Part shown: positions 19,719 to 48,335 of the stretch, in pieces
Layout: each line of letters begins with the position of its first letter
Position numbering within the stretch: position 1 is the first letter of the stretch
NCBI RefSeq assembly: GCF_021462505.1
Contig: NZ_JAKEDV010000008.1
Span: 31,265 to 95,264 of the forward strand
Direction: 5' to 3'
Source of the DNA: Thermus brockianus
GTDB lineage: Bacteria; Deinococcota; Deinococci; Deinococcales; Thermaceae
Length of the DNA: 64,000 bases
The notes under the pieces: model-generated
Databases searched by the model: none
Told to the model about the DNA's origin: nothing
The model's input: only the letters and a program-made list of their open reading frames with translations
Made by a program: the position numbers and the translations under genes

Positions 19719-19720
19719 TT

Positions 19721-20665: not shown

Positions 20666-20704
20666 GGCCCCTATACCCTATGTTCTCCGTGTCAGGAATT
20701 GGTC

Positions 20705-20724
20705 AGGGGGGCCTGGGCCCCCCC
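20705..20724 (-). terminator. GC-rich hairpin after the Ugp-like binding protein
   Basis: GGGGGGCC and GGCCCCCC face each other around 20706-20723, between the stop of the upstream minus-strand gene (20742) and the next start (20665). There is no clear U tract, so termination is probable but not certain. Confidence 0.4.
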
Positions 20725-20741
20725 AACCTTTGTCCTAAAGA

Positions 20742-22022: not shown

Positions 22023-22034
22023 CCCTTCACCTCC

Positions 22035-22892
22035 CTAGCCTTTTAGCCCACTCCGGGCAAAGGCTTCCACGAAGCTTCGCTGGAAGAGCAGAAAGGCGGT
22101 GACCATGGGTAGGGCCACCAGTAAGGCTCCCGCAGCGATCAGGCCCCACTCCATCCCGCTCTCAGCGGAACGGGCGAAGCTGGCAAAGCCCAAAGAGAGC
22201 ACGCGCTTTTCGGGGCTTTGGATGACCACAAGGGGCCACAGGAACTCGTTCCAGTGATAGACCAGGCTGACCAAGGCAAAGGCAGCGAGCTGGGGGCGAA
22301 CTAGGGGCAGGAGAACCCGCCAGAGGACCTGCCAGGGCGTGGCCCCATCCACGTAAGCGGCCTCCACGAGTTCCTTGGGTATTTGCAGAAAGCCCTGGCG
22401 CAGCAGGAAGGCGCCCGTGGCCGAGGCGACATAGGGTAGGGCCAGGGCGGTTAGGGTATCGGCTAGGCCGAGCCTTTGAACGAGGATGAAGTTGGGCAGG
22501 ATAAGCGCGGAGGCCGGGAGGAAAAGTTGGAGGAGGATCAGGTAGAAGAGGGTGTTATTCCCCCGTCCCTTTAGATGAGCAAGGGCAAAACCGGCGGTGG
22601 TCACGGTCAAGACTTGCACTAGAAGGAGGCCAAGGGTGAAGGCCAGGGTGTTGAGGTAAAGCCGAGGGAAGTCGGCGGAACTCCACGCAAGCTTGAGGTT
22701 TTCCAAGGTGAACCTGCCTAGCTCCCCGCGGTTGAGGTCTGCGGTAGGGGTGAAGGCGGCGAGGAGGGTATACCCTGCGATAAGGGCGTAGGGCAAGGCG
22801 AAGAGGAGGGCGGGTAGCTGGCGGGCACCCTCCCAAGAAATACGCCGCACGCGGCGGAGGAAGACCTTAGGATGCACAGGGCTAAGCGTCAT
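22035..22892 (-). CDS. UgpE/MalG-like ABC permease, system 1
   Basis: A 285-residue six-span permease with the EAA loop KELVEAAYVDGATPWQVLWRVLLPL. The chosen ATG at 22892 lies in an 11-base overlap with the preceding permease; an upstream start at 22961 would add residues unlike the family. It pairs with the UgpA-like permease to form the channel for the binding protein 12 bases downstream. Confidence 0.87.
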   Translation of the reverse strand: MTLSPVHPKVFLRRVRRISWEGARQLPALLFALPYALIAGYTLLAAFTPTADLNRGELGRFTLENLKLAWSSADFPRLYLNTLAFTLGLLLVQVLTVTTAGFALAHLKGRGNNTLFYLILLQLFLPASALILPNFILVQRLGLADTLTALALPYVASATGAFLLRQGFLQIPKELVEAAYVDGATPWQVLWRVLLPLVRPQLAAFALVSLVYHWNEFLWPLVVIQSPEKRVLSLGFASFARSAESGMEWGLIAAGALLVALPMVTAFLLFQRSFVEAFARSGLKG

Positions 22893-23688
22893 AGTGTACA
22901 CCTCGCTCCAAGCGGGGTAGAGCGGTGAGGGCGAGGAGGGTGAGAGCAGTGAGCAGGACAAGGCTCAGGGCCCCCGCTTGGGAAAAGTCAAAGTACTCAA
23001 ATCCTAGGGTGTAAATGCGGTAAAGAAGATGGTCCGTGGCGCCCATAGGGCCCCCTTTCGTGAGCACGAAGATGTGGTCCACGTTCCTCAGGGCCCCCAG
23101 CACGGCCATTACCCCCACGAAAAAGGTGGTGGGGGAGAGCAGGGGCAGGGAAATCCGCAAGAAGGTGGCGACCCGCCCGGCCCCGTCAACCCGGGCGGCC
23201 TCGAGGAGCTCCCTGGGAATTGCCTGGAGCCCAGCCAGGTAGTAGAGCATGTACAGGCCCGCATCCTTCAGGATGCCCACCAGGGCCACGCTCAAGAAGG
23301 CGCTAAGGGGTTCCCCTAAGGGGTTTTGTAGCCCTAGTGCCTGGAGGAGGTTGCGAAGGGGACCCAAGGGGTTGAGCAGGTAGAGGAAGACAGCGGCAAA
23401 GGCCACCGTGGGCAGGATGACGGGGTGAAAGATAAGAAGCCGGGCAAGCAGCCTTAGCCGGCCGTCCCCCTCCACCGCCACGGCGGCCAACAGGCCCAAG
23501 GCTACGGACAAGGGTACCGTGAGGAGCGTGTAAAGGGCGGTAACCCTGAGGGCGTTGAGGTTCTCCGGGGCAAGCAGCTTAGGGAGTGCGGGAATGCCCT
23601 CCTTAGCCGCCACCGCAAAGGGGAGGTAAGTAAAGGCTGCCAGAAAGATGAGGGTGGGGAGGAGGAGCAAAGCCCAGGGTCCCTTCAT
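22882..23688 (-). CDS. UgpA/MalF-like ABC permease, system 1
   Basis: A 268-residue six-span permease with EAA loop RELLEAARVDGAGRVATFLRISLPLLSP. It is the first gene of the operon and divergent from the alkaline phosphatase. The operon has no UgpC-type ATPase, so it must borrow one encoded elsewhere, as CUT1 importers often do. Confidence 0.87.
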   Translation of the reverse strand: MKGPWALLLLPTLIFLAAFTYLPFAVAAKEGIPALPKLLAPENLNALRVTALYTLLTVPLSVALGLLAAVAVEGDGRLRLLARLLIFHPVILPTVAFAAVFLYLLNPLGPLRNLLQALGLQNPLGEPLSAFLSVALVGILKDAGLYMLYYLAGLQAIPRELLEAARVDGAGRVATFLRISLPLLSPTTFFVGVMAVLGALRNVDHIFVLTKGGPMGATDHLLYRIYTLGFEYFDFSQAGALSLVLLTALTLLALTALPRLERGVHYDA

Positions 23689-23712
23689 GCCTGAGAAGAC
23701 GTTACCTGCGTC

Positions 23713-23724
23713 CTGTCAGGACAG
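23713..23724. promoter_or_regulatory. CTGTC-AG-GACAG palindrome between ugpA-like and phosphatase genes
   Basis: A perfect 12-base inverted repeat in the 170-base divergent region, 25-36 bases upstream of the permease start. It could be an operator controlling one or both promoters. I cannot assign a regulator. Confidence 0.35.
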
Positions 23725-23805
23725 GGTCAGCTCGGGTTGGGCCTGGTGGGTACCTTGCGGCCTTCCGGCGGTAGCGGAGGGGAAAACCGGCGTTAGGGCC
23801 CGGCC

Positions 23806-23835
23806 ATGACACGCTCCTGAAAAGGCACCTATAGT
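23806..23835 (+). promoter_or_regulatory. Alkaline phosphatase promoter
   Basis: ATGACA at 23806-23811 and a good TATAGT -10 at 23830-23835 with an 18-base spacer. A Shine-Dalgarno (GGAGGTGAT) follows at about 23845 before the GTG start. Confidence 0.5.
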
Positions 23836-23858
23836 TTTGGTCCTGGAGGTGATATGCC

Positions 23859-25364
23859 GTGAAAAGGCGTGACCTTTTAAAAGGCGGCCTCATGGCGGGG
23901 GCCCTGGCCCTTATGCCCAGGGGAAGGGCCCAGGGGGCTCCCCAGAACGCTCCTTCCCTAGGGCGGCGGTACCGGAACCTCATCGTCTTCGTCTACGATG
24001 GCTTTTCCTGGGAGGACTACGCCGTGGCCCAGGCCTACGCCAGAAGGCGCCAGGGGCGGGTCCTCGCCCTGGAAAGGCTTCTTGCCCGCTACCCTAACGG
24101 CTTGGTGAACACCTATAGCCTCACCAGTTACGTCACCGAGTCCAGCGCCGCGGCCAACGCCATGTCCTGCGGGGTGAAGACCGTAAACGGGGGCCTGGCC
24201 ATCCATGCGGATGGCACGCCCCTCAAGCCCTTCTTCGCCGCCGCCAAGGAGGCGGGGAAGGCGGTGGGCCTGGTCACCACCACCACCGTCACCCACGCCA
24301 CACCCGCAGGGTTTGTGGTGTCCAACCCCGACCGCAACGCCGAGGAGCGGATTGCCGAGCAGTACTTGGCGTTTGGGGCCGAGGTTTACCTGGGCGGTGG
24401 GGACCGGTTCTTCAACCCGGAAAGGCGACAGGACAAAAAGGACCTCTACGCCGCCTTCGCCCAGGCGGGTTACGGGGTGGTGAAGACCCCGGAGGAGCTC
24501 GCCCGCACCAACGCCAGCAAGCTTCTTGGGGTCTTTTCCGATAGCCACGTCCCTTACGAGGTGGACCGGCGCTTCCAGGGGGTGCGGGTGCCGAGCCTAA
24601 AGGAGATGGTCCAGGCGGCCTTGCCCCGCTTGGCCTCCTATCGCAACGGCTTCGTCCTCCAGGTGGAGGCGGGCCGGATTGACCACGCCAACCATCTGAA
24701 CGATGCCGCGGCTACCCTCTGGGATGTCCTTGCCGCCGATGAAACGCTAGAGCTTCTCACCGCCTTCGTGGACCGCAACCCCGACACCCTCCTCCTCTTG
24801 GTTTCCGACCACGCCACCGGGGTCGGGGCGCTTTACGGGGCGGGGCGGAGCTATTTGGAGAGCTCCACCGGGATTGACCTCCTCGAGGCACAAAAGGCGA
24901 GCTTTGAGCACATGCGTCGCCAGCTTGGCAACAACCCCGACGCCGCCCAGGTGAAGGAAGCCTACCGGTCCATGAAGGGCGTGGCCCTCACGGACGAGGA
25001 GGCGGAACGGGTGGTGCGGGCCATCCGCGAACGGGTCTACTGGCCGGAGGGCGTGCGCCAAGGGGTGCAGCCGGACAACACCATGGCTTGGGCCATGGTT
25101 CAGCGCAACGCAGCTAAGCCTGACCGGCCCAACATCGGCTATAGCTCTGGGCAGCACACGGCAAGCCCCGTGGTTCTCGCCCTCTACGGGCAGGGCCTCC
25201 GCTTCTTGAACCTGGGGCTTGTGGACAACACCCACGTTTTCCGCCTCATGGGGGAGGCCCTGGGCATCCGCTACCAGAACCCGGTGATGAGCGAGGAAGA
25301 GGCCTTGGAGGCGCTTAAGGCGCGGCCCCAAAGCGTGCGTCACCCTGAGGACGTTTGGGCCTAG
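23859..25364 (+). CDS. phoA: Alkaline phosphatase, Tat-exported
   Basis: A 501-residue phosphomonoesterase that frees phosphate outside the cytoplasm. The N-terminus KRRDLLKGGLMAGALAL has a twin-arginine signal. VFVYDGFSWEDY provides the first metal Asp, TESSAAANAMSCG contains the nucleophile Ser, THATPAGFV, EAGRIDHANHLNDAA and SDHATG supply metal ligands, and GQHTASPV near the end the last His. Length and motifs fit the Thermus alkaline phosphatase. The start is the GTG at 23859, nine bases after GGAGG; the ATG at 23854 is followed at once by a stop in its own frame. A terminator follows. It is divergent from the Ugp-like importer, so together they can cleave and take up organophosphates. 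Confidence 0.9.
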   Translation: MKRRDLLKGGLMAGALALMPRGRAQGAPQNAPSLGRRYRNLIVFVYDGFSWEDYAVAQAYARRRQGRVLALERLLARYPNGLVNTYSLTSYVTESSAAANAMSCGVKTVNGGLAIHADGTPLKPFFAAAKEAGKAVGLVTTTTVTHATPAGFVVSNPDRNAEERIAEQYLAFGAEVYLGGGDRFFNPERRQDKKDLYAAFAQAGYGVVKTPEELARTNASKLLGVFSDSHVPYEVDRRFQGVRVPSLKEMVQAALPRLASYRNGFVLQVEAGRIDHANHLNDAAATLWDVLAADETLELLTAFVDRNPDTLLLLVSDHATGVGALYGAGRSYLESSTGIDLLEAQKASFEHMRRQLGNNPDAAQVKEAYRSMKGVALTDEEAERVVRAIRERVYWPEGVRQGVQPDNTMAWAMVQRNAAKPDRPNIGYSSGQHTASPVVLALYGQGLRFLNLGLVDNTHVFRLMGEALGIRYQNPVMSEEEALEALKARPQSVRHPEDVWA

Positions 25365-25384
25365 GCGAGGGGCTCCTCCTTCCG

Positions 25385-25405
25385 CCCGCCCCCGCAGGGG
25401 GCGGG
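25385..25405 (+). terminator. Terminator after alkaline phosphatase
   Basis: CCCGCCCCC, loop GCA, GGGGGCGGG: a nine-base-pair GC stem 20 bases after the phosphatase stop, followed by TCCTTCTCT. Confidence 0.65.
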
Positions 25406-25419
25406 TCCTTCTCTGGGGC

Positions 25420-25448
25420 TTGACTTTTTGAGATTGCATTGTCAATAT
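25420..25448 (+). promoter_or_regulatory. Zinc-cluster promoter with Zur/Fur-like dyad
   Basis: TTGACT at 25420-25425, a 17-base spacer, and CAATAT at 25443-25448. ATTG-N6-CAAT (about 25433-25446) is a small dyad across the spacer and -10, the place where a Zur-type repressor would act. The downstream genes encode zinc-binding proteins, so zinc repression is likely but the regulator is not in the window. Confidence 0.5.
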
Positions 25449-25470
25449 CAGTCACTTGAGGAGGTGCGCC

Positions 25471-26649
25471 GTGCGCGAGTGGACCAAGATCTTCCTCGGG
25501 TTTACCCTCCTTTTCCTCTCCCAGGCCCTGGGCCACGCCGCCGTACCTGAGAGGCCGGAGGCCTTTGAGGCGGAGGCCCGGCTCTTCGTCCTGGACAACC
25601 GGCCGGGGTATAGCCGTCTCCTCGCCTTGGACCTGCCCGGGGGCCAGGCGGTGGCGGAGCTCTCCCTGCCTCCCCGGGGCATGAGCCTGGTGGCCACGCC
25701 CTCGGGCCGCTACCTTCTGGTGTCCCGGGGTCGGGATACGGACCGGCAGTGGCTCACCGTGGTCTGGACGGGGAAGGAGGAGGGGCGTTGGAGCCGGCCC
25801 GTGATCGCCAAGAGCTTCCTTCTGGGACGGGGGTGGAACATCGGCCACGGCTCGGAGGCCTACACCTTGGGGGGCAAGCTCCTCGCCTTCGCCGAGCGGG
25901 ACGCCCTGGCCTTCCGTTTTGATGAGGAGGCTTTGGACCCGAAGGCGGCCTTCCAGGCGGAGACCCTGAGGCTCCCCAACCCCGACCACTACCACGTGGT
26001 GGAGGCCCCGGAAGGTACGTACCTCACCCTCTTGGCCCGGGGGCAGGTGGTCCTCTTTGACCGGGAGCTTCGGGCGGAGCGGGGGCGCTTCGCCTGCCCT
26101 GTGGAGCACGGGGAGGCCTTCCACCCCGAGACGGGCCGGAGCTTTTTCGCCTGCGCGAAGGACGTGCTGGTCCTGGAGGGGGGTAGGGAGCTTGCCCGCC
26201 TGGCCTACCCCGTGGGCGAGCGGGTTGGGGCTTTCCTGAAGGGGGATGGGGTTTTCTTCGGCTACTCCGACAAGGTTACCCACCTGCAGCGCCTGGACCC
26301 TCGAGGCCCCCAGCTAACCCCCATCCCCCTCGGGGGCGCGCTGCTAAGGGCCAAGGCCGACGGGAAGCGGGTTTACGTCCTCCTCACCGACGGGAGGCTC
26401 CAGGTGCTGGAGGGGCGGGAAGGGAAGCTTCTTAGGGAGCTCCGCCTTGCCCGGCCTTTCCCGGAGATGGAGGAGGACACCGGGGGCGCCATCTACCCCG
26501 ACCTGGCCCCCTGGCCCGAGCGGGGCCTCCTCTACGTGAGCCTGCCCCATCTGGGCCTCGTGGCCGAGGTGGACGGGGAGAGGGGCCGGGTGGTCCGGTA
26601 CCTGCACACGGGGGGTAGCCCCACCCGCCTGGTTCTGGTGCGGCCATGA
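25471..26649 (+). CDS. AztD-like beta-propeller zinc chaperone, paralogue 1
   Basis: A 392-residue exported propeller protein. The start chosen is the GTG at 25471 after GAGGAGGT, followed by a signal sequence (FLGFTLLFLSQALGHAA). Blades show short repeating strands (LFVLDNRPGYSRLLALDLPG, VVLFDRELRAERGRF, VLVLEGGRELARL). His-rich loops NPDHYHVVEAPEG and CPVEHGEAFHPETG, plus FFACAKDVLVLEGG, line up with the AztD-type protein at 27950 (CPRLHGEAV and AAFGCLDGVLLVERR). AztD is a periplasmic zinc chaperone that hands metal to the AztC/ZnuA-type binding protein. Overlaps the next gene by four bases (ATGA). Confidence 0.65.
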   Translation: MREWTKIFLGFTLLFLSQALGHAAVPERPEAFEAEARLFVLDNRPGYSRLLALDLPGGQAVAELSLPPRGMSLVATPSGRYLLVSRGRDTDRQWLTVVWTGKEEGRWSRPVIAKSFLLGRGWNIGHGSEAYTLGGKLLAFAERDALAFRFDEEALDPKAAFQAETLRLPNPDHYHVVEAPEGTYLTLLARGQVVLFDRELRAERGRFACPVEHGEAFHPETGRSFFACAKDVLVLEGGRELARLAYPVGERVGAFLKGDGVFFGYSDKVTHLQRLDPRGPQLTPIPLGGALLRAKADGKRVYVLLTDGRLQVLEGREGKLLRELRLARPFPEMEEDTGGAIYPDLAPWPERGLLYVSLPHLGLVAEVDGERGRVVRYLHTGGSPTRLVLVRP

Positions 26650-27077
26650 ACCCCATGCCCGTCTTCATGTACCTCCTGGGGGTGGATGCGGCCCAGGGCC
26701 TCCTCGAGGCCCTGGGGTACCGGAAGGCTCCCCATCCCAAGGGGGTGGGCTCCAGCCTCTACCTGGGGGAGGAGGCGGTGCTCCACTCCACGGGGCTCTG
26801 GTACCGGGGCGTGCTCTACCTCAGGCCCAAGGAGCGGTTCTACCGGGCTTCCCTCCCGCCCTATCCCCCGGAAGTGGCCCCCCAAGCCGAGCCCCTTCCC
26901 TTTGGGGAGGGCCTCGCCCACTACCTGCCCTTCATCCAGGCCCACGAGGAGAGGGTGCGGGCCCTCCGGGGGGAGGGACGGGAGCGGCTTTTGCGCCACC
27001 TCCCTCCCGTTGCCCGCCGCCACCTGAAGGAGTGGAAGTCCCTTTGGAGGAGCGATGAGGAGGCTGCTCGCCCTTAG
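26646..27077 (+). CDS. Unknown 143-residue protein in the zinc cluster
   Basis: Coupled to both neighbours: its ATG overlaps the previous stop by four bases and its 3' end overlaps the znuA-like gene by 23. No signal peptide is clear; VFMYLLGVDAAQGLLEALGY is an amphipathic start. The C-terminal half is basic and His-containing (HYLPFIQAHEERVRAL, LLRHLPPVARRHLKEW). I do not recognise it. The placement suggests a metal-related accessory role. The shorter start at the second Met (MPVFMY) is also possible. Confidence 0.6.
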   Translation: MNPMPVFMYLLGVDAAQGLLEALGYRKAPHPKGVGSSLYLGEEAVLHSTGLWYRGVLYLRPKERFYRASLPPYPPEVAPQAEPLPFGEGLAHYLPFIQAHEERVRALRGEGRERLLRHLPPVARRHLKEWKSLWRSDEEAARP

Positions 27078-27909
27078 CCTCTTCGCCGCCTCCGCCCTGG
27101 CCCAGCTCCAGGTGGCGGCCACCACCACCGTCTTGGCGGACCTGGTGCGCCAGGTGGGAGGGAATAGGGTCCGGGTGGAGAGCGTAGTGCCCCCCGGGGC
27201 CGATCCCCACGCCTTTGACCTGCGGCCTTCCACCGCCTCCCAACTCTCCCGGGTCCGCCTCCTCTTCGCCAACGGCTTGGGCCTGGAGCCTTACCTGCCA
27301 AAGCTCAGGGCCCTTCTACCCCCGGGGGCCAGGGTGGTGGAGCTCGCCCCGGGGATGCCCGACCCCATCTGCGGCCTCCTGGGCCTCCGGGAAAAGGGGG
27401 TCCACCTCCACGGGGACTGCGACCCCCACCTGTGGCTGGACCCCACCTACGCCCTGCGCTACGCCGAGCGCATTGCGGCGGCGCTCGCCCGCCTGGACCC
27501 GAGGGGGGAAGGGGCGTACCGCAAGAACCTCGAGGCCTTCCGCCAAGCGGTGGAGCGGGAGGACCAGGCCCTTTCCGCCTGCCTCGAGGGGAGGCGGCTC
27601 TGGGTGGTGGTGAGCCACCTGTCCCTCTCCTACCTGGCGCGGCGCTACGGCCTGGAGATCGTGGGGGCTCTTAAGGACGCCCACGGCCAGGAGGGAAGCG
27701 TCCGGGAACGCCTGGCCCTCTTTAAGGAGGCGGAGGCCAAGGGGGTGGACCTGGTGGTGGCGGAGCCCCAACTGGATCCTGCTCCTTTGCGCCGGCTGGC
27801 GGAGGAGCTTGGGGCGAGGCTCGTGGTCCTCTACACCGACGCCTTGGACCGGAGGGTGCCCACGTACCGGGACCTCCTCCGTTGGAACCGGAATGCCTTG
27901 TGCCCGTAG
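27055..27909 (+). CDS. ZnuA/AztC-like zinc-binding ABC protein
   Basis: A 284-residue cluster A-I binding protein. The signal is MRRLLALSLFAASALAQ. Zinc-family landmarks are ATTTVLADLVRQVGGNRVRV, PPGADPHAFDLRPS (first His), VHLHGDCDPHLWLDP (His-rich loop and second His), VVSHLSLSYLARRYGLE (third His) and the acidic ligand near LYTDALD. The short His/Asp loop is typical of zinc rather than manganese members. It lies between two AztD-like genes, but no ZnuB permease or ZnuC ATPase is nearby, so those must be encoded elsewhere. Confidence 0.88.
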   Translation: MRRLLALSLFAASALAQLQVAATTTVLADLVRQVGGNRVRVESVVPPGADPHAFDLRPSTASQLSRVRLLFANGLGLEPYLPKLRALLPPGARVVELAPGMPDPICGLLGLREKGVHLHGDCDPHLWLDPTYALRYAERIAAALARLDPRGEGAYRKNLEAFRQAVEREDQALSACLEGRRLWVVVSHLSLSYLARRYGLEIVGALKDAHGQEGSVRERLALFKEAEAKGVDLVVAEPQLDPAPLRRLAEELGARLVVLYTDALDRRVPTYRDLLRWNRNALCP

Positions 27910-27949
27910 CCCTTTACGGGGCCTTTGGCCTCGAGGGAAAGGAGGAACG

Positions 27950-29101
27950 ATGCGAGGGAGAAAGGTTGCGTTTGCCGCGGTTTTGGCCTTAGGTCTTGCC
28001 CTGGCCCAAGGGGAACACGCTCACGGCGAAGGGCTTTTCCGCCGCCTGGCGGTGGCGGACGGGAAGGAGCCCCTGGTGCGGGTTATGAACGAGGATGGGA
28101 AGGAGCTTGGCCGCTTCACCGTGCCTTCCCCCGCCCGCCTCTATCCCCTTCCGGGCGGGCAGTACGTCCTGGCGGTCCACCGGGATGCCGGGGCGGTGAG
28201 CTTTCTCTTCGGGGGTTTCCGCCTCGAGGACCACGGCGACCATCGGGATGTGAAGGAGGAGAACCCCTACGTGGCCGCCACCCTGCGCACGGGGCCTAAA
28301 CCCACCCACATCTTCGCCAACGAGGATACCCTGGCGGTCTTCCACGATGGGGACGGCACCTTGGCCCTCTTTGACCTGAGGCGCTTGGGCCTGGACTTCA
28401 CTCCCGGGCTCATCGCCACCGGTAGGGCGGACCACGGCGCGGTGGCCCTCCTGGGCGAGGCGGTCCTGGTGGGGGGGTTGGAGAGCGGTAGGGTGGAGGT
28501 TTACACCCGGGAAGGGAGGCGGGTTCTCCCCCTGCCCCAGACCTGCCCCCGGCTCCACGGGGAGGCCGTGCTAGGGGAGGTGGCCGCCTTCGGGTGTCTG
28601 GATGGGGTGCTCCTGGTGGAGCGGCGAGGCCAGGGGTTTATGGGGCGCAAGGTGGCGAACCCTCCCGGAAGCCCCGAAGGGGCCCGGGTGGGTACCCTGG
28701 TGGCCCATCCCAGGGCGGGGGTCTTCGTGGGGAACTTCGGCCAGGGCCTCGCCTTCTTGAAGCCCGGGGAGGGGCGGATGGAGGTCCTGCCCTTGCCCGC
28801 CCGCCCCTTGCGCTTTGGCTTCGGACCGGAAGGGGAGGCCCTCTACGTCCTCACCGCCGACGGGCAGTTCCACAAGGTGGACCCGGTGGCGCGCCGGGTG
28901 GTGGGGAGCCTCGAGGCCACCTCCCCCCTGGACACCGCCCCGGGGCTTGCCCTGGGCCACGGGGTGGCCTACCTGGCCGACCCCGTTCGGGGCGAGGTGG
29001 TGCGGGTGGACCTGGAGGAGTGGAAGGTGGCGGCCCGCCTAAAGGTGGGGGGCATGCCTCTGGGCTTGGCCCTCTTTGAGGTGGAGGGGGTGAAGCACTA
29101 G
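27950..29101 (+). CDS. AztD-like zinc metallochaperone, paralogue 2
   Basis: A 383-residue exported beta-propeller protein with an unusually His-rich start after the signal (GEHAHGEG). AztD hallmarks visible are LEDHGDHRDVKEENPYV, GPKPTHIFANEDTLAVFHDG, RADHGAVALLGE, LHGEAVLGEVAAFGCLDG. It is predicted to bind zinc in the periplasm and pass it to the ZnuA-like protein encoded just upstream. The ATG follows a good AAAGGAGG. A strong terminator lies 17 bases after the stop. Confidence 0.82.
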   Translation: MRGRKVAFAAVLALGLALAQGEHAHGEGLFRRLAVADGKEPLVRVMNEDGKELGRFTVPSPARLYPLPGGQYVLAVHRDAGAVSFLFGGFRLEDHGDHRDVKEENPYVAATLRTGPKPTHIFANEDTLAVFHDGDGTLALFDLRRLGLDFTPGLIATGRADHGAVALLGEAVLVGGLESGRVEVYTREGRRVLPLPQTCPRLHGEAVLGEVAAFGCLDGVLLVERRGQGFMGRKVANPPGSPEGARVGTLVAHPRAGVFVGNFGQGLAFLKPGEGRMEVLPLPARPLRFGFGPEGEALYVLTADGQFHKVDPVARRVVGSLEATSPLDTAPGLALGHGVAYLADPVRGEVVRVDLEEWKVAARLKVGGMPLGLALFEVEGVKH

Positions 29102-29117
29102 CGCCTGTTTCCCTTTC

Positions 29118-29144
29118 GGCCCCGGCCATGGGCCGGGGCCTTTT
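29118..29144 (+). terminator. Terminator closing the zinc operon
   Basis: GGCCCCGGCC, loop ATG, GGCCGGGGCC followed by TTTTGTGCTC: a perfect ten-base-pair stem and U tract. Confidence 0.9.
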
Positions 29145-29151
29145 GTGCTCC

Positions 29152-29180
29152 TTGACAAACTACTGAGAAGACATTATCAT
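29152..29180 (+). promoter_or_regulatory. Promoter of the chimeric pseudogene, Fur-like motif
   Basis: TTGACA at 29152-29157, a 17-base spacer and TATCAT at 29175-29180. GAGA-N3-CATT-N-TCA-N-TA at 29165 onward resembles the motif GAGATTGCATTGTCAATA in the zinc promoter, and TTATCATT resembles TTATCGTT in the haem promoter, so a metal-responsive repressor may act here. The promoter looks sound although the gene is broken. Confidence 0.5.
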
Positions 29181-29189
29181 TAAGTCGCT

Positions 29190-29249
29190 ATGCGCCTGGC
29201 CTACGTTTTGGCGAGTCCTCGGGCGGCAAGCCACAAGCTCGGGCAGATG
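29190..29249 (+). repeat. 60-bp repeat of the DsrE-like gene start, copy A
   Basis: Bases 29190-29249 match 48276-48335 at 57 of 60 positions, counted by eye. Homology stops abruptly after the codons for SHKLGQM. See copy B at 48276. Confidence 0.9.
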
Positions 29250-29598
29250 ACCTTCAAAGCCTCGGTGTCCGTCCCGTGGAAAGGCCGAACTTCGTCTATC
29301 CTGTGGAGTTTCTCCCTAGAAACCAGCTCGCCATTCTGCGCTTACTCAACGCTTTGGAGGACGCTTTTGTGGGGGCATACCTAGGGGCTTTGCCCCTCAT
29401 CGCCAACAAGGACATCCTGAAGGCGGGGGGGCGATCCTCGGCAACGAGGCCGCTCACCGCGCCACGGTGCGGGCTTCCCGCATCCTTTTAGGGGACCAGG
29501 AGCTCCCCGGTCCCCGCTCTCCGGCGGACCGGGCTTTTGAGGTGGCCATTACCCCCGAGGAAGCGCAGAAGGCGGTTTCGGGTTTTGTCCGTAGGTAA
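29190..29598 (+). pseudogene. Chimeric pseudogene: DsrE-like start joined to ferritin-like remnant
   Basis: The first 20 codons encode MRLAYVLASPRAASHKLGQM, almost the same as the DsrE-like protein at 48276. From the junction on, another frame reads LQSLGVRPVERPNFVYPVEF, then LPRNQLAILRLLNALEDAFV, and, after one base is lost in a run of seven G (near 29425), AILGNEAAHRATVRASRILL to a stop at 29598. The E-x-x-H and helix pattern point to a ferritin-like domain protein (DUF4439-like). So a 5' piece of one gene is joined to the 3' piece of another, with an added frameshift. Neither product can be made intact. Confidence 0.75.
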
Positions 29599-29610: not shown

Positions 29611-29648
29611 CAGTCCGCGGGGGCTTTTCCCGCGGGCTGGGCCCTTTT
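29611..29648 (+). terminator. Terminator after the chimeric pseudogene
   Basis: CAGTCCGCGGG, loop GGCTTTT, CCCGCGGGCTG gives an eleven-base-pair stem with one G-U pair, followed by GGCCCTTTTGG. Confidence 0.7.
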
Positions 29649-29662
29649 GGAATAGGAGCCTG

Positions 29663-29739
29663 TTGCGAACGGTTATCGTTCCTAATACTCACAAAATCCG
29701 ACCGGAATACTTGACATTCTTGGGGGTTTCCCCTAGCCT
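29663..29739 (+). promoter_or_regulatory. Haem/iron operon promoters with GAACG-N5-CGTTC dyad
   Basis: The best promoter is TTGACA at 29711-29716, a 17-base spacer and TAGCCT at 29734-29739. Upstream, GAACGGTTATCGTTC (29667-29681) is a perfect five-base inverted repeat around TTAT, possibly a Fur-family operator. TTGCGA at 29663 with TACTCA 17 bases on could be a second promoter that carries the dyad in its spacer. Confidence 0.5.
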
Positions 29740-29759: not shown

Positions 29760-30080
29760 GTGTTTGTGGTCATGAACCGCATACCGGTAAAACCCGAGTA
29801 TGCCGAGCGGTTTGAAGAGGTTTTCCGCACCCGGGCCCGCCTCGTGGACCGGATGCCGGGGTTTGTCCGCAACCTGGTTCTGCGGCCCAAGAGCCCAGGG
29901 GACCCCTATATCGTCCTCACCTTTTGGGAGAGCGAGGAGGCCTTTCGGGCTTGGACGGAAAGCCCCGAGTTCAGGGAGGGCCACGCGCGAAGCGGTACCT
30001 TGCCCAAGGAAGCTTTTGCGGGTCCGAATAAGCTAGAACTTTTCCAGATAATCTTGGACTCGGAGGTGGAAGGTGGTTGA
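29760..30080 (+). CDS. Antibiotic-biosynthesis-monooxygenase-fold protein, haem-degrading type
   Basis: A 106-residue ABM/ferredoxin-like fold protein with FVVMNRIPVKPEYAERFEEVF, MPGFVRNLVLRP, and YIVLTFWESEEAFRAWTESPEF, a pattern shared by HmoA/HmoB/IsdG-like haem monooxygenases. GTG at 29760 follows GGAGGTGATG. As the first gene of a haem/iron-uptake operon it may open the porphyrin to release iron, though the exact catalytic residues (Asn, Trp, His of IsdG) cannot be assigned by eye. It overlaps the next gene by eight bases. Confidence 0.75.
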   Translation: MFVVMNRIPVKPEYAERFEEVFRTRARLVDRMPGFVRNLVLRPKSPGDPYIVLTFWESEEAFRAWTESPEFREGHARSGTLPKEAFAGPNKLELFQIILDSEVEGG

Positions 30081-30690
30081 GAGCCTTCCCGTCTGGGCCC
30101 TCCTAAAACGGGCAAGGGAACGAATATACACCTTGCCCGAGACTTTCCCCGGCTTTTCCGCAAGCGTTGCTTTCTACTTCAAGGGCCTCTGGTACTTCGG
30201 GCGGGTGAAGGTGGAGGGCTTCCGCCCGGAAGTGGAACTGCCCGAGGGTATGGGCCCCCTTGCGGAGCGGGAACTGGCCTCCTTGTTGGGCCACCGTCGG
30301 CCTGTGCCCTTTGAGGAGGGGGAAGGGCGCTACGCCATGCGCTTGGTGGAAGAGGGCCCCTTGGGTACCGCCATCGCCTTGAATGACCCTTTCCGTTCTC
30401 GCATCTGGGTGCGCCATGGCCGCATAGAGGTCATTGAGCGCAGCCTGGCGGAGGGTTCCTTCCGCATTCACCTCGAGGCCTGGCAGGAGGTGGGGGAGAA
30501 GCTGTTGCCCAAACGCTTCTTTTTGGTCCACCGGGACCCCAAGGGGCGGCTGATCAAGGTGGAACGCTTCCGGGATACCTATGCCTCTTTCCAAGGGTTG
30601 TGGCTTCCCGTGGAGCGGGAGGTGGTGGTGGAGGCGACGGATATGGAAACGATAGTCCTGCGCCTAGAGGACGTGGAGGTGTACGCATGA
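30073..30690 (+). CDS. DUF3386-like protein
   Basis: A 205-residue soluble protein with no signal peptide. FPGFSASVAFYFKGLWYFGRVKV, then VELPEGMGPLAERELASL and FRDTYASFQGLWLPVEREVVV resemble the DUF3386 family, whose members are often beside iron or haem genes. The function is unknown. The GTG start is inside the preceding gene and its stop overlaps the hmuT start (ATGA), so it is tightly embedded in the operon. Confidence 0.6.
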   Translation: MVESLPVWALLKRARERIYTLPETFPGFSASVAFYFKGLWYFGRVKVEGFRPEVELPEGMGPLAERELASLLGHRRPVPFEEGEGRYAMRLVEEGPLGTAIALNDPFRSRIWVRHGRIEVIERSLAEGSFRIHLEAWQEVGEKLLPKRFFLVHRDPKGRLIKVERFRDTYASFQGLWLPVEREVVVEATDMETIVLRLEDVEVYA

Positions 30691-31595
30691 GGGGGCGAAG
30701 CGGCGTGGCTTTCATGGCAGTGCTTTCCTTGCTAGCCTGGGCGCAACCCTACCGGGTGGTGGACGCTAGTGGGAAAGCGGTGGAGGTGCGCTCCATTGAG
30801 CGCATCGTAAGCCTGGATGGCATTACCACGGAGATCCTCTTTGCCTTGGGTGTAGGGGACAAGGTGGTGGGGCGGGATGACTCCAGTTACTATCCGCCCC
30901 AGGTCCTTCGGCTTCCGAGCGTAGGGTACCAGTTCCGTCTCTCTGCCGAGGGCATTCTCTCCTTGAAGCCTACCCTCGTCATTGGCCGGGAGGATGTGCG
31001 CCCGCCCCAGGTGGTGGACCAACTCCGGCAAGCTGGGGTGGCGGTTGTCCTGGTGCCTGCCGAACCCAGCGTGGAGGGGGCCAAGCGCAAGATCCGGGTG
31101 GTGGCGGAGGCTGTGGGCCAAGCCGCAAGGGGCGATGCTTTGGTGCGGGCTTTGGAGCGGGACCTTTTGGCTTTGCGCGCTTTCCAAGCGCAACACGCTT
31201 CCCGAAAGCTACGGGCGCTCTTCCTTTACCTACGGGGACCGGGTACCACCTTCGTGTGCGGCGAGGGCAGTACCCCTGTGGGCGTCATGGAGCTAGCGGG
31301 GCTTGAGAACGCCGCCAAGGGCATACGGGAGTGCCAACCCATGACCGCGGAGAGCGTGGTAGCGGCCCGGCCGGATGTCCTTGTGGTCTTCAAAAGGGGC
31401 CTGGAGAGCGTGGGGGGCCTCGAGGGCCTTCTCAAACTCCCCGGCGTGGCGCAAACCCCCGCAGGGCAAAACCGCCGCGTGGTGGCCATGGACGACCTTT
31501 ACTTGGGGAGCTTCGGGCCCCGGGCAGGCCGGGCTGCCCTAGACCTGTTCCGGGCGGCTTACCTGATGGACGGCTTCGTGGAGGTGGGACCGTGA
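30687..31595 (+). CDS. hmuT: Haemin ABC substrate-binding protein
   Basis: A 302-residue exported cluster A-II binding protein. The signal (FMAVLSLLAWAQP) is followed by RVVDASGKAVEVRSIERIVSLDG, ALGVGDKVVGRDDSSYYPPQ, LSLKPTLVIGREDV and RPDVLVVFKRGLES, as in HmuT/ShuT haemin-binding proteins; the Tyr pair DDSSYYP could coordinate haem iron. The ATG at 30687 shares ATGA with the previous stop. It feeds the permease encoded after the 36-residue gene. Confidence 0.88.
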   Translation: MRGRSGVAFMAVLSLLAWAQPYRVVDASGKAVEVRSIERIVSLDGITTEILFALGVGDKVVGRDDSSYYPPQVLRLPSVGYQFRLSAEGILSLKPTLVIGREDVRPPQVVDQLRQAGVAVVLVPAEPSVEGAKRKIRVVAEAVGQAARGDALVRALERDLLALRAFQAQHASRKLRALFLYLRGPGTTFVCGEGSTPVGVMELAGLENAAKGIRECQPMTAESVVAARPDVLVVFKRGLESVGGLEGLLKLPGVAQTPAGQNRRVVAMDDLYLGSFGPRAGRAALDLFRAAYLMDGFVEVGP

Positions 31596-31702
31596 GGTCG
31601 TACCTTATCTGGCGGGCCTTCCTGAAGGCAGCCTTGTTCCTCGCGCTGCTCGGCAAACCCCTACCCCCTCGGTTGGACGCTTTCTGGGAGGAGCTGCCGT
31701 GA
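31592..31702 (+). CDS. 36-residue hydrophobic microprotein between hmuT and hmuU
   Basis: A short frame GTG to TGA encoding VRSYLIWRAFLKAALFLALL, then GKPLPPRLDAFWEELP. Both ends are coupled: its GTG overlaps the hmuT stop (GTGA) and its stop overlaps the hmuU GTG (GTGA). One short membrane helix with positive charges on one side and an acidic tail is predicted. Exact packing suggests that it is translated and perhaps assists the permease; otherwise it is only a coupling link. No family is recognised. Confidence 0.55.
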   Translation: MRSYLIWRAFLKAALFLALLGKPLPPRLDAFWEELP

Positions 31703-32730
31703 CCCGTGGCCTGCCGCTTGGCCGCTTCCGTCGCTACCGGCTGGTACTGCTAGGGTTGGTGCTCCTCCTTGCCCTGGCCCTCTTGCTGGGGGCGGCCCTT
31801 GGGGCCTATCCCATTCCGCCCTTCTCCATTCCCGGCATCTTGCTCAAGGGCGAAGGGGTGGAGTACCAAGTCCTTACCGCCCTTCGCTTGCCCCGGGTCT
31901 TGGGGTCGGCTCTGGTGGGTGCCCTTCTTGCCCTGTCGGGGGCGGTGCTGCAAGGGCTTTTCCGTAACCCTCTAGTGGATCCGGGCCTCATCGGCGTGTC
32001 CTCCGGGGCCGCCTTGGGCGCTGCCATCTTCATCGTCGTGTTGCCCGGGGCGGGCGCCTTGGAGGTATACGCCCTACCCCTCTTTGCCTTCCTTGGGGGG
32101 CTTCTCGCCACCCACTTACTTTGGCGCTTAGCCCAAACGCCCTGGGGCGTCCAGGTATCGGTGCTTCTCCTTTCTGGGATTGCGCTAAACGCCCTGGTGG
32201 GGGCGGGCATCGGCCTTCTCACCTTTGTGGCCAGCGAGCAGGAGCTTCGTAGCCTCACCTTTTGGACCCTGGGGGGCTTTTCTGCCATTACCTGGCACCT
32301 CCTTCTGGCGGGGCTTCCCTTTGGCCTTCTCGCCTTCCTTCTCCTCCTGCACTTGGCCCGTCCTCTGAATGCTTTGGTTCTGGGGGAGCGGGAGGCGTTT
32401 CACCTTGGGGTGGACCTCGAGGCCCTCAAACGGCGGGCAGTGGCCGGGGCAGCTTTGGGGGTGGGGGTGGCCGTGGCCTTGGCCGGGGGCGTGGGGTTCT
32501 TGGGGCTCGTGGCGCCTCATCTTTTCCGCCTCCTGGCGGGGCCCGACCACCGCTACCTGCTCCCGGGGGCGGCCCTGTTGGGAGCGGTCTTGGCGGTAAC
32601 CGCCGATCTCCTGGCCCGGACCTTGGCTGCCCCGGCGGAGATCCCCGTGGGCGTGGTCACGGCCTGTCTAGGAGGTCCCTTTTTCCTCTATCTGGTCCTG
32701 CGGTACAAGCGGGAGGTGTTCCGTGCTTGA
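31699..32730 (+). CDS. hmuU: Haemin/siderophore ABC permease, FecCD type
   Basis: A 343-residue permease with about nine or ten membrane spans. Characteristic stretches are LRLPRVLGSALVGALLALSGA, GLFRNPLVDPGLIGVSSGAALGA, LGVDLEALKRRAVAGAA and VGFLGLVAPHLFRLLAGPDH. These identify the BtuC/FecCD family. It starts with GTG inside GTGA and overlaps the ATPase gene by eight bases. Confidence 0.9.
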   Translation: MTRGLPLGRFRRYRLVLLGLVLLLALALLLGAALGAYPIPPFSIPGILLKGEGVEYQVLTALRLPRVLGSALVGALLALSGAVLQGLFRNPLVDPGLIGVSSGAALGAAIFIVVLPGAGALEVYALPLFAFLGGLLATHLLWRLAQTPWGVQVSVLLLSGIALNALVGAGIGLLTFVASEQELRSLTFWTLGGFSAITWHLLLAGLPFGLLAFLLLLHLARPLNALVLGEREAFHLGVDLEALKRRAVAGAALGVGVAVALAGGVGFLGLVAPHLFRLLAGPDHRYLLPGAALLGAVLAVTADLLARTLAAPAEIPVGVVTACLGGPFFLYLVLRYKREVFRA

Positions 32731-33505
32731 GGCGAGAAACCTGGGTTACCGAGTGGGCGAAAGGTGGCTTATCAAGGGCGTGGACCTTGCCGTGCGCCCA
32801 GGAGAATTCCTGGCCGTCTTGGGGCCTAATGGGAGCGGCAAGAGCACCCTCCTCCGCCTCCTTGCCGGTGAGCTTCGGCCCACCCAAGGAGAGGTGTGGC
32901 TTAGGGAGCGTCCCTTGGCCGCCCATACTCCGCAGGCCCTGGCCCGGGTGCGGTCCGTGCTTTCGCAGCACCGGGAAATAAACTTCCCCTACACCGCTTA
33001 TGAGGTGGCTTTCCTGGGGCGGCTTCCCCACCTTGAGGGAAGGCGGGAGCGGGAGGAAGACCATGCCAAGGTCAGGAGTGCGTTGGTGCGGGCCCAAGCG
33101 GGAGACCTGGCCGAAAGGCTTTACCCAAGCCTCTCCGGGGGTGAGGCCATGCGCGTGGAAGCGGCGCGGCTTTTGGCCCAGGAAGGGGATCTCTTCCTCT
33201 TGGACGAGCCCACCAACCACCTAGACCCGCGGTATGCCTTAGAACTCCTCTGCCTCTTTCGCGCCTTGGCCTACGAAGGGAAGGGGGTGGTGGCGGTCCT
33301 CCACGACCTAAACTTGGCGGGGCTTTTCGCCGACCGCATCCTCCTTTTGAAGGGGGGAAGGTCTGTGGCGTATGGAGCTCCTCAGGCCGTCTTGCACCCC
33401 GAGCTTTTGGAAGAGGTCTACGAGGTTCCCTTCCGCGCCTTAGGGCACCCGGGGGCTTTTTCCTTTCTCCTGCCCGTGCCCAAGGAGGTGGTCCGTGGAG
33501 CCTGA
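32723..33505 (+). CDS. hmuV: Haemin/siderophore ABC ATPase
   Basis: A 260-residue ATPase: Walker [10 protein letters not shown] (about 34-42), Q-loop LSQHREI, signature [15 protein letters not shown], Walker [14 protein letters not shown] and switch His in VLHDLNL. The QH-x-E-I-N-F and LSGGE variants are typical of HmuV-like haemin importers. GTG start in an eight-base overlap with hmuU. Confidence 0.9.
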
Positions 33506-33806
33506 GCACGCCCAGGTGGTGGCCCGGATTTCCGAAAGCCGCTATCTTGCCCGATGCTCGTGCAACGGCGGCACCTACCACCTGCATTGGGATGCGGGTA
33601 CCTTTCGCCTTACCCCGGAAGGCCTCCTTTTCCTGGCGCAGGTTCTAGAAGACCTCCTGTCCCGGGGCGGCGATGGGGTGGTGTGGTTGGGTGCAGTGGG
33701 TCTACGGTTCCGGGAGGGAGAAGGGCAGGAACTCCTCCGCCTTCTGCGGCGGGGGCTTGTGTGGCAAAAGGCAAGTCCTGTTGGGTATTTTCGCCATCTG
33801 AACTAG
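33495..33806 (+). CDS. Unknown 103-residue CxC protein in the haem operon
   Basis: A small soluble protein, GTG start within an 11-base overlap with hmuV. YLARCSCNGGTYHLHWDAG has a Cys-x-Cys followed by two His, a plausible haem or metal site. The rest (LTPEGLLFLAQVLEDLL, GVVWLGAVGLRF, LLRLLRRGLVWQ) is helical. It reads like an intracellular haem-handling or regulatory accessory, but no family is recognised. Confidence 0.6.
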   Translation: MEPEHAQVVARISESRYLARCSCNGGTYHLHWDAGTFRLTPEGLLFLAQVLEDLLSRGGDGVVWLGAVGLRFREGEGQELLRLLRRGLVWQKASPVGYFRHLN

Positions 33807-33809
33807 AAT

Positions 33810-34724
33810 ATGCGGAAGATAGCACGTTTGGCTTCGGTTTACCTGGCTTCCCTAGCTTTGGCGCAGGGCGGTTGCCCAGGTGGGGGGGTACCCCATGACC
33901 TGGGCGAGGTGTGCTTGGCCAAGACCCCGGAGCGGGTGGCGGTCTTGGATTGGCGCCCCCTCGAGGACCTCCTCCTCCTGGGGGTCCGGCCCGTGGCGGG
34001 AGCGGACCTGGCGGACTTTCCCAGGTGGGTGCGGATGGATCTTCCCCAGGGGATCCAGGATCTCGGGGGACGCATGAACCCGAGCCTTGAGCGCCTAGCG
34101 GCGCTTAAGCCAGACCTCATTCTGGGCTACACGGGTTTCCAGGCCAAGCTTTACCCCGAGCTTGCCCGCATTGCGCCCACGGCCCTTTACGACTACTTAC
34201 CCTCAAGCGGGCAACTCGCCGCCATGCGCCGGCACTTCCTCCTGCACGCTCGCCTGGTGGGGAAGGAGCGCGAAGGGGAAAGGCGGTTGGCGGATTTGGA
34301 CCGCTTCCTAAGCCAAACCGCCGACGCCCTGCGACAGGCGGGACTAGCGGGGAGGCCCTTCCTCTTGGTGCAGGCGTGGGCCCGGGAGAAGGTCTACAAC
34401 GTCTTCACCCGCGACACCCTGGCTTCCGAGCTCCTAGAGGCCGTGGGCCTGGCCAACGCTTGGAGGGGAAAAGCGGAGGCCTATGGTCTTTCTCGGGTAG
34501 GTGCGGAAGGCCTCGTGCGCTTGGTACAGGACAACCCTGGGGTGCTCGTTTTCCTCATCGCCCAACCGGAAAACAACCCTCTGGCGGACCCAGCGGTGGG
34601 TCCCTTGCTCCGATTGGCAAAGGCTCGTGTGGTGGCCTTAGACCCCAGCACCTGGACGTATGGCGGGCCCCATTCTGCCCGCGTTTTGGTGGAAGGAGTA
34701 CGGCGTTCTCTCTTGGGGAGGTAA
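33810..34724 (+). CDS. Iron-siderophore-type ABC substrate-binding protein
   Basis: A 304-residue exported FecB/FepB-like cluster A-II binding protein. The signal (LASVYLASLALAQG) precedes CPGGGVPHDLGEVC, RVAVLDWRPLEDLLLLGVRPV, LAALKPDLILGYTGFQ, LYPELARIAPTALYDYL and YNVFTRDTLASELLEAVGL. It is a second binding protein for the same permease/ATPase or for one elsewhere; a different ligand (ferric chelate against haem) is likely. Two N-terminal Cys may form a disulphide. ATG starts three bases after the previous stop. Confidence 0.83.
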   Translation: MRKIARLASVYLASLALAQGGCPGGGVPHDLGEVCLAKTPERVAVLDWRPLEDLLLLGVRPVAGADLADFPRWVRMDLPQGIQDLGGRMNPSLERLAALKPDLILGYTGFQAKLYPELARIAPTALYDYLPSSGQLAAMRRHFLLHARLVGKEREGERRLADLDRFLSQTADALRQAGLAGRPFLLVQAWAREKVYNVFTRDTLASELLEAVGLANAWRGKAEAYGLSRVGAEGLVRLVQDNPGVLVFLIAQPENNPLADPAVGPLLRLAKARVVALDPSTWTYGGPHSARVLVEGVRRSLLGR

Positions 34725-34727
34725 ACC

Positions 34728-35777
34728 GTGTGGCGTTCTCTCTGGATAGCCCTAGGTTTTTTGGGTCTTGCGTGGGCGCAAGGGTTTAGGGAGGGGTTAG
34801 CGGCCACGGTGTCGCCCTTGGTGGAGGGCCTTGCGGCGCAGAGTGGGCTTTTGGCGCAGGCAGCGCGGGCGTTTGCGGGAAACCCCACCCCAGACGGGCT
34901 CCATCGTCTACAGCTCCTTTGGCACGCCGCCCGGGATTACTGGGAAGAGTTGGAGGCTTTCGCCTTCGGTCCGGTAGGGGACTATGACCCGTACCTGGAT
35001 ACCTGGCCCATAAGCCCTGAAGAGCTCGCGCGCTCCCTAGGGACTTCCGTGGAAAACCTTCCCCCTGAGGTGCGGGGTTTTCATGCCCTGGAATACCTGC
35101 TCTTCCAAGCGCTCCCCAAGGAAGCCGAGGGTTTGCGCCACCTAGCCCTTTTGGCGGAGGACCTTGCCCGCCAGGCCGATGCGCTCCGGGAACGGTACGA
35201 GGCCTACCTGCAGGAGGCCTCGGAGGAAGAGCTCGCCTCGGAACTCTACGCTGCCAGCTTGGAGCTGGCCGAGGAGCTCTTCAGCGAAAAGCTTAGAAAC
35301 CCGGAAAGCCCCTATGCGCGGCGCTCGGCTGAGGATTACCGGGCCAACGGCCGAGGGTTGGCCAAGGCCTTGGCCCTCCTAACCCTTCAAGGCAACTCCT
35401 GGGCATTGACCCTGGACCTTCAGGCAGCCCTTGCCAACCTACCAAGCCCCTTGGAGGAGGCTTGGGATGATCCCCGGGTGGAAACGGCCCGAACGAAGGC
35501 CATGGCCCTGTACCGCGCCCTCTCCCAAACCCCGGTGGGAGGCGCCAAGGAGCGGGCGCGCCTTTGGCTACGCACCTTCCGCGAAGAGTACCTGGGGGAA
35601 GGGGAAGTGGACGAGGGACTTGCCGCTTTAGAGGGCCTGGAGCAAGCGGTACAGGCACTTCCCGAGGCGCAAGAGGCGGTGCGCCTTTTGCAGGCTATCC
35701 GGGCTAAGGTGGAGGCCCACGCCCCCGCTGAGGAGGTGGAGCCTATTCTCAGCGCATTGGAGGAGCTTTTGCGCTAA
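34728..35777 (+). CDS. Imelysin-family iron-regulated exported protein
   Basis: A 349-residue exported helical protein. The signal (LWIALGFLGLAWAQG) is followed by TVSPLVEGLAAQSG and by GFHALEYLLFQA, the imelysin GxHxxE motif which binds metal, and by YRANGRGLAKALALL in the C-terminal helical repeat. Imelysins (ICMP, IrpA) are periplasmic iron-regulated proteins. It overlaps the next gene, a dihaem protein, by one base, a common imelysin pairing. Starts with GTG three bases after the previous stop. Confidence 0.85.
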   Translation: MWRSLWIALGFLGLAWAQGFREGLAATVSPLVEGLAAQSGLLAQAARAFAGNPTPDGLHRLQLLWHAARDYWEELEAFAFGPVGDYDPYLDTWPISPEELARSLGTSVENLPPEVRGFHALEYLLFQALPKEAEGLRHLALLAEDLARQADALRERYEAYLQEASEEELASELYAASLELAEELFSEKLRNPESPYARRSAEDYRANGRGLAKALALLTLQGNSWALTLDLQAALANLPSPLEEAWDDPRVETARTKAMALYRALSQTPVGGAKERARLWLRTFREEYLGEGEVDEGLAALEGLEQAVQALPEAQEAVRLLQAIRAKVEAHAPAEEVEPILSALEELLR

Positions 35778-36961
35778 TGCGGAAGGGGCTCTTTTTCCTC
35801 TTTGTCCTACTCCTCGGAGCCCTTCCTGCCCGGTACCTGGTGAACGACGCCTCGTCCCGGGCCTTCGGCCACCCCTTACCCGGGTTGACGCCCGAAGAAT
35901 TGGAGGCGTTCCGCTTGGGGGACCAAGCCTTCAACCGGGTTTTCGTGAGGGAGGACGGCCTGGGCCCTCTTTTTGTTCACCAGTCCTGTGCCGGGTGCCA
36001 TGTGCGGGATGGCCGGGGTCGGCTGGCCTTCGCCGAGCGGAGCGAGGCGCTCGTGCGCACCCGGGCTCCAAACGGCCTGGACCCCCATCCCCGTTTCGGG
36101 TGGCAACTCCAGGACCACGCGCTTTTGGGGTTGGAGCCTGAGGGGAGGGTGGCCCTCCGCTTTGAGGAGGTGGAGGGAAGGTATGTGGACGGTACCCCTT
36201 ACCGCCTGCGCCGGCCCCATGTGGAGGTCTTGGACGCCAACGGGTTCCCCGTGCCTGGGCGGTATAGCCTCCGCTTGGCTCCGCCCGTCTTTGGGCTTGG
36301 GCTTTTAGAGGCGGTCCCCCAAGCGGTACTGGCCGCCTTAGAGGACCCTGGGGACCGGGATGGGGACGGGGTGTCGGGACGGCTTGCCTACCTGGAGGGG
36401 GGACGCGTGGGACGGTTCGGGTGGAAGGCCAGCGTGGCCAGCCTGGAGGAGCAAAGCGCCATAGCCTACCGCGAGGACATGGGCCTTTCCACGCCCTTGT
36501 TCCCCGAAGAAGACGGAAAGGTGGAGGTTTCCCAGGAAGAGTTGGAACGGGTGGCCTTTTACCTGCGCCACCTGGCGGTGCCGGCACCGCGGCACCGCCC
36601 CGAGGACCTTAAGGGGAAGCGCCTCTTTCGGGAAATCGGGTGTGCCGCCTGCCACCGGGAGAACTTGGCCGGACTTCCCGCCTACACGGACCTTCTCCTG
36701 CACGATATGGGCCCCGGTCTGGACGACGGGGTTGCGGAAGGGGCGGCCCAGTCCCGGGAGTGGCGTACCCCGCCCCTTTGGGGCATCGGGCTTACCCGGC
36801 AGGTGCTTGGGGAGGAGGCGTATCTCCACGACGGCCGGGCCCGGAGCTTGGAGGAAGCCGTTTTATGGCATGGAGGGGAGGCGGAAGCGGCCAAGAAGCG
36901 TTTTCTCGCCCTGCCCCGAGAGGACCGGGAGGCTCTGTTGCAGTTTCTCAAAGAGCTTTAG
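35777..36961 (+). CDS. Dihaem oxidoreductase (DHOR, DUF1111) family c-type cytochrome
   Basis: A 394-residue exported protein with an N-terminal signal or anchor. Two haem c motifs, CAGCH (about residue 74) and CAACH (about 292), mark it as a dihaem oxidoreductase or peroxidase-like protein. The family-specific blocks are QSCAGCHVRDGRGR, DPHPRFGWQLQDHALLG, DRDGDGVSGR, RVGRFGWKA and YLHDGRARSLEEAVLWHGG. It follows the imelysin gene with a one-base overlap (TAATG). It may oxidise or reduce iron at the cell surface to aid uptake; that role is inference. Confidence 0.88.
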   Translation: MRKGLFFLFVLLLGALPARYLVNDASSRAFGHPLPGLTPEELEAFRLGDQAFNRVFVREDGLGPLFVHQSCAGCHVRDGRGRLAFAERSEALVRTRAPNGLDPHPRFGWQLQDHALLGLEPEGRVALRFEEVEGRYVDGTPYRLRRPHVEVLDANGFPVPGRYSLRLAPPVFGLGLLEAVPQAVLAALEDPGDRDGDGVSGRLAYLEGGRVGRFGWKASVASLEEQSAIAYREDMGLSTPLFPEEDGKVEVSQEELERVAFYLRHLAVPAPRHRPEDLKGKRLFREIGCAACHRENLAGLPAYTDLLLHDMGPGLDDGVAEGAAQSREWRTPPLWGIGLTRQVLGEEAYLHDGRARSLEEAVLWHGGEAEAAKKRFLALPREDREALLQFLKEL

Positions 36962-45640: not shown

Positions 45641-45772
45641 GGACCCCACCCTATGCGTTTCCCTTCAGGGGTGTGTCATCAAGCCTTCTGCATTCCCTCG
45701 GGGCTGGGTGGCTTCTCTGCTAACCCTTCCTTTGGCCCCAAGGGGCGGGCTTTCCTTTGGATGGGCGTGCTT

Positions 45773-45778
45773 TATACC
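45773..45778 (+). promoter_or_regulatory. -10 box of a leaderless promoter
   Basis: TATACC lies nine bases before the ATG at 45788, so the message probably starts at or beside the start codon. No good -35 is visible (TTTCCT at 45751 is weak). The preceding 100 bases hold no convincing gene. Confidence 0.4.
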
Positions 45779-45787
45779 CTTGACAAG

Positions 45788-48276: not shown

Positions 48277-48335
48277 TGCGCGTAGCCTACGTTTTGGCGA
48301 GTCCTCGGGCGGCGAGCCACAAGCTCGGGCAGATG
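48276..48335 (+). repeat. 60-bp repeat of DsrE-like gene start, copy B
   Basis: Matches 29190-29249 with three mismatches. This copy is the start of an intact gene and is likely the parent or close relative of copy A. Confidence 0.9.

Follow-up and report, generated by a model that had tools for sequence, protein, structure and literature searches.

A probable deletion scar joining the start of a zinc-locus dsrE gene to a ferritin-like remnant in Thermus brockianus

In the window (by which we mean the whole 64,000-nucleotide stretch of Thermus brockianus DNA analysed here), a short open reading frame that begins like one gene is followed, in another frame, by the remains of a second one, which raises the question of how the two pieces came to be joined and whether the resulting locus could still have a function. 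The features on which the answer depends are:

29190 to 29249, plus strand: stub with codons 1 to 20 of the zinc-locus saoD/dsrE gene (similarity search and base count)
29245 to 29250, no strand: join between the end of dsrE and the start of ferritin similarity, about 5 bp (GATGA) being assignable to either gene
29250 to 29598, plus strand: 3' part of a Ferritin_2 gene, with about 118 of 206 codons, in another frame than the dsrE start (profile and relatives)
29425 to 29431, plus strand: run of seven G at which the ferritin frame lacks one base (by alignment with five intact genes; identical in G011, a second strain of the species)
48276 to 48677, plus strand: intact SaoD/DsrE-family gene of 133 aa, with the second copy of the 60 bp, behind an ABC transporter (NF040913)

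The stub (MRLAYVLASPRAASHKLGQM) is identical to 48276-48335 at 57 of the 60 bases (E = 1.8e-21 in a search of the 2.35-Mb genome, which holds no third copy of the segment), exactly as counted in the original prediction, and the 60-bp start of the zinc-locus dsrE of another relative, G024, is nearly as close (56/60). Similarity to dsrE ends at 29250, the reading frame from the ATG at 29190 runs to a stop at 29384 (64 aa), the ferritin part lying in another frame, and the stub (20 codons only) is no full-length member of the SaoD/DsrE family (NF040913). Moreover, it carries a V3L change that is absent from all of the 16 other dsrE copies compared. The intact gene at 48276 passes the family model (191 bits against a curated cut-off of 152) and scores below the stricter SaoD model NF040732 (118.6 against 169); a search of the open-access literature on SaoD returned nothing.

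The ferritin frame opens with GCA GAT GAC at 29243, and similarity to the ferritin-like gene of G021 begins at 29250, from where the DNA shares about 82% of its bases with the 3' part of the relatives' genes. Translation of 29252-29428 matches PF13668 (Ferritin_2; E = 9.9e-7, score 29.4 against a gathering threshold of 24.7) over profile positions 62-117 of 138 only, so that the predicted change of frame into a ferritin-like C-terminal part is borne out. Intact ferritin-like relatives (G049, G026, G018, G021, G013; T. thermophilus, T. oshimai and T. aquaticus plasmids) have 205-210 codons, from which the window keeps approximately the last 118 (residues ~86-206). Alignment with five intact genes likewise upheld the loss of one base in the G run: where G021 reads AAG GCC GCG GGG GCG ATC, the window reads AAGGCGGGGGGGCGATC, which is one base shorter, and G011 is identical in this respect. 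On the simplest reading, which is beyond proof, the base lost would be the one that interrupts the G run and not a G. As compared to Thermus Ferritin_2 proteins (e.g. TTH_RS11065 of T. thermophilus HB8), the remnant has the ~118 C-terminal codons in common, with strongly conserved amino acids, but is devoid of the N-terminal half (including the QEEAH segment). With some 88 N-terminal codons missing and the frame broken at 29425-29431, the piece does not have the makings of a functional ferritin-like protein, and a search of the genome with full-length ferritin found neither the N-terminal piece nor a second ferritin copy.

To the left of the stub, the following features are found:

25471 to 29101, plus strand: zinc/metal-uptake operon (beta-propeller protein, 143-aa protein, ZnuA/AztC-like binding protein, AztD-like protein), the ancestral left flank by synteny
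29118 to 29140, plus strand: terminator-like hairpin 3' of the AztD-like gene, with 10 G-C pairs followed by TTTT, also present in G007 (T. brockianus pTB1)
29152 to 29180, plus strand: promoter TTGACA-17-TATCAT, 11 of 12 consensus matches
29164 to 29179, plus strand: metal-type dyad TGAGAA-GACA-TTATCA over the -10 (motif scan, conserved in relatives)

The binding protein of this operon (27055-27909) carries the ZnuA domain (PF01297, E=9e-57). The promoter, whose -10 ends 9 bases ahead of the ATG (a transcript from it would be nearly leaderless), is kept ahead of intact dsrE in G007, G021, G026, G002 and G023, and in a diverged form in G025. The dyad is the sole exact match to TGANAAN4TTATCA in the genome (at one mismatch, 2 matches occur against 0.04 expected per window), and its conservation at the promoter makes it a putative Fur/Zur-like site, the identity of whose regulator we infer; on a Thermus Fur box, nothing was found in the open-access literature. 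The sound promoter with a metal-type dyad that had been proposed in front of the stub is thereby corroborated.

Comparison with relatives places the stub in its original surroundings. The 10 kb at 19261-29250 are collinear with pTB1 (84% identity), where the same zinc operon, promoter, dyad and gene start lead into a full dsrE (A0O31_RS12260, annotated as SaoD/DsrE family) and then into a GTP-binding protein (A0O31_RS12255) that resembles ZigA and scores below the ZigA cut-off; both genes are intact in pTB1, whereas here dsrE is cut at codon 20. Including pTB1, nine relatives have dsrE after the zinc operon, several of them with the same promoter, and in G021 a cytochrome oxidase pair stands between the two. 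Because the left flank, promoter and start are syntenic with intact loci, the stub is the original beginning of the zinc-locus dsrE, still in its native position. A displaced ZigA-like GTPase was not found elsewhere in the genome, and G011 gave a weak partial match only.

On the right-hand side, the remnant is followed by:

29615 to 29635, plus strand: inverted repeat CCGCGGG-7-CCCGCGG after the ferritin stop, with no strong T run (seen in the sequence; not scored as a terminator)
29662 to 29718, plus strand: conserved iron-type promoter element of the haem operon, a dyad and then AATCCGACCGGAATACTTGACA, recurring across the genus
29760 to 36961, plus strand: haem/iron uptake operon (monooxygenase, DUF3386, hemin ABC transporter, second binding protein, di-heme oxidoreductase; homology)

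Haem-operon similarity resumes at 29655-29667. The promoter element (a dyad near AAGTGATTATCACTT, then AATCCGACCGGAATACTTGACTTT over the -35) occurs once or at several sites in each Thermus genome, ahead of haem-monooxygenase genes or operons and of ferric-type binding-protein genes (L062-L071, L083, L096, L099, L100, L102, L106, L112-L123), and is probably a genus-wide iron-regulated promoter, at which a second regulator besides Fur may perhaps act. In relatives, the ferritin gene often lies behind a sigma/anti-sigma pair, no more than a few kb from the haem operon and in varying orientation (convergent with it in T. thermophilus, divergent in T. oshimai and G049). Codon composition also separates the two sides: the ferritin piece, with a GC3 of 0.72, resembles the haem operon (0.75-0.79) and not the zinc operon (0.88-0.89), so that the compositional boundary coincides with the join.

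The remnant has aged little. A frame-corrected comparison with relatives over 106 codons counted 43-48 synonymous and 12-16 nonsynonymous changes (dS 0.83-1.10, dN 0.055-0.072), and the resulting omega of 0.06-0.08 is no worse than the 0.08-0.28 between intact ferritin genes. Given this low omega, the loss of constraint is recent, and purifying selection acted on the gene until a short time ago.

Taken together, we consider it very probable that the locus is a deletion scar, in which codon 20 of dsrE is joined out of frame to approximately codon 90 of the ferritin-like gene. The ancestor would have had the zinc-uptake operon, then the metal-regulated promoter with a full saoD/dsrE, and further to the right a ferritin-like gene beside the haem-uptake operon. 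A join within some 5 bp of shared sequence (GATGA, 29245-29250), a short homology that may have had a role in the event, would have removed the remaining dsrE, the intervening DNA and the N-terminal half of the ferritin gene, and the one-base deletion at 29425-29431 and V3L could have arisen before, with or after it. The locus would since have yielded no functional DsrE or ferritin-like protein, while the paralogous dsrE at 48276 is intact. A deletion-type join is the best reading because everything from the left flank through the promoter to the end of the 60 bp has its syntenic counterpart in intact dsrE loci, and because the genome contains no reciprocal fragment (ferritin 5' with dsrE 3'), as queries with full-length ferritin and dsrE recovered only the known pieces there; we infer a single deletion rather than inversion or transposition with subsequent loss. 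These same observations support the deletion part of the original prediction, while its assumption that the genes had been neighbours found no support: the promoter with dsrE recurs in Thermus, and a ferritin gene next to dsrE was seen in none of the relatives sampled across the genus, the family and the named plasmids. An ancestral order of dsrE, ferritin (plus strand) and haem operon (plus strand) was present in no sampled genome, and since the ferritin orientation also varies, at least one further rearrangement is needed.

For these very reasons (an ancestral order not found, a ferritin orientation that varies among relatives), the join could also stem from an inversion or insertion, the other product having since disappeared. 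An inversion that broke dsrE and a ferritin gene of opposite orientation has a suitable geometry in G021, where dsrE (plus) and ferritin (minus) lie 39 kb apart on one contig and would yield this fusion, but it is unlikely: it requires the extra loss of a reciprocal product of which the genome holds no fragment, and in G021 and G024 the zinc operon, dsrE, other genes (nos-type in both) and the haem operon already follow one another in one order and direction, as in the window, with no inversion involved.

Recombination of one dsrE locus with the other, at a distance of 19 kb, which was the other origin originally proposed, could account for the 57/60 identity. In the dsrE nucleotide tree, the 48276 copy does group with the zinc-locus copies of G007, G021 and G024 (C53) and not with the ABC-linked copy of G010 (support of the separating branches 98 and 100), its GC3 of 0.89 exceeds that of its ABC neighbours (0.80-0.83), and ahead of the zinc-locus dsrE of G024 (L081, ~7400-7446) we observed 46 bp of an ABC permease tail, apparently left behind when the two dsrE contexts recombined. 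From the tree grouping and this tail, a movement of dsrE between contexts is suggested, and the loci have probably exchanged sequence within the genus. Nonetheless, as the cause of the fusion such an event is quite improbable and largely refuted by synteny, for the stub is placed exactly as the relatives' zinc-locus dsrE, behind the same promoter and dyad, and the zinc-locus copy of G024 is nearly as close to it; the 60 bp being the native copy at the native site, no 19-kb exchange is needed. The tree rather suggests a transfer from the zinc locus to the ABC locus, older than the fusion.

Could the deletion scar have acquired a use? That the fusion is a new selected gene, or that it brought the haem operon under a metal-responsive promoter, is highly improbable. 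The promoter and dyad are intact and no scored terminator stands between the stub and the haem operon, but the reading frame has 64 aa only and is out of frame with ferritin, the haem operon retains its own conserved promoter, and only two near-identical strains are available. If a zinc-type promoter had been captured for haem uptake and the scar kept for that reason (which we strongly doubt), haem uptake in this species would answer to two metals. We found no evidence in support of a function for the fusion, and gene annotations are not warranted for the short reading frames at 29190, 29276 and 29467. The locus seems instead to be a normal deletion pseudogene, a product of ordinary genome decay in a rearrangement-prone region (syntenic with megaplasmids described as dynamic in PMC1274311), with no sign of a working fusion protein. 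Like bacterial deletion-derived chimeric pseudogenes, it combines two truncated genes, a short shared sequence at the join and a frameshift; nothing structural differs, its peculiarities being of a local kind, namely the recent date (low omega) and the metal-type promoter that it has kept. It offers a clean and recent example of gene loss on a rearrangement-prone Thermus replicon, in which (if by one join) a single event put both the zinc-locus dsrE and the ferritin-like gene out of action while the second dsrE copy stayed.

An artefact of sequencing or assembly (a false join or a homopolymer error) is hardly credible and was rejected: the frameshift does fall on a run of seven G and consensus sequence only was at hand, but the join is independent of the homopolymer, and the separately assembled G011, with SNPs of its own, carries the same fusion and is identical over the 651 bp that span fusion and frameshift. 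Elsewhere G011 departs from the window by 5 SNPs between 18790 and 38789, three more between 38790 and 47970, a one-base indel at ~47979 and about five differences beyond 48100, and it is therefore a different strain or, at the least, was assembled independently; neither fusion nor frameshift is therefore a sequencing error. Truncated on both sides and frameshifted relative to conserved intact relatives, in two strains alike, the locus is the chimeric pseudogene it had been taken for.

Decay was also observed in the corresponding neighbourhood of G023. Its dsrE (L079, 4240-4590) is disrupted into two partial matches in different frames, with part of the middle gone, apparently an independent decay of the same gene; just upstream of its haem operon (L079, 16524-17382) lie broken pieces of binding-protein-like and AztD-like genes, which appear to be a further rearrangement scar.

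Around the intact dsrE in the window (45761-48677), the genes for a binding protein, an ATPase and a permease make up, together with the SaoD/DsrE gene, an operon reminiscent of Sao-type transporter sets, its ATPase and DsrE protein scoring below the Sao-specific cut-offs. The permease gene ahead of dsrE (47543-48276) is split by a one-base deletion at ~47979, and its frame is intact in G011.
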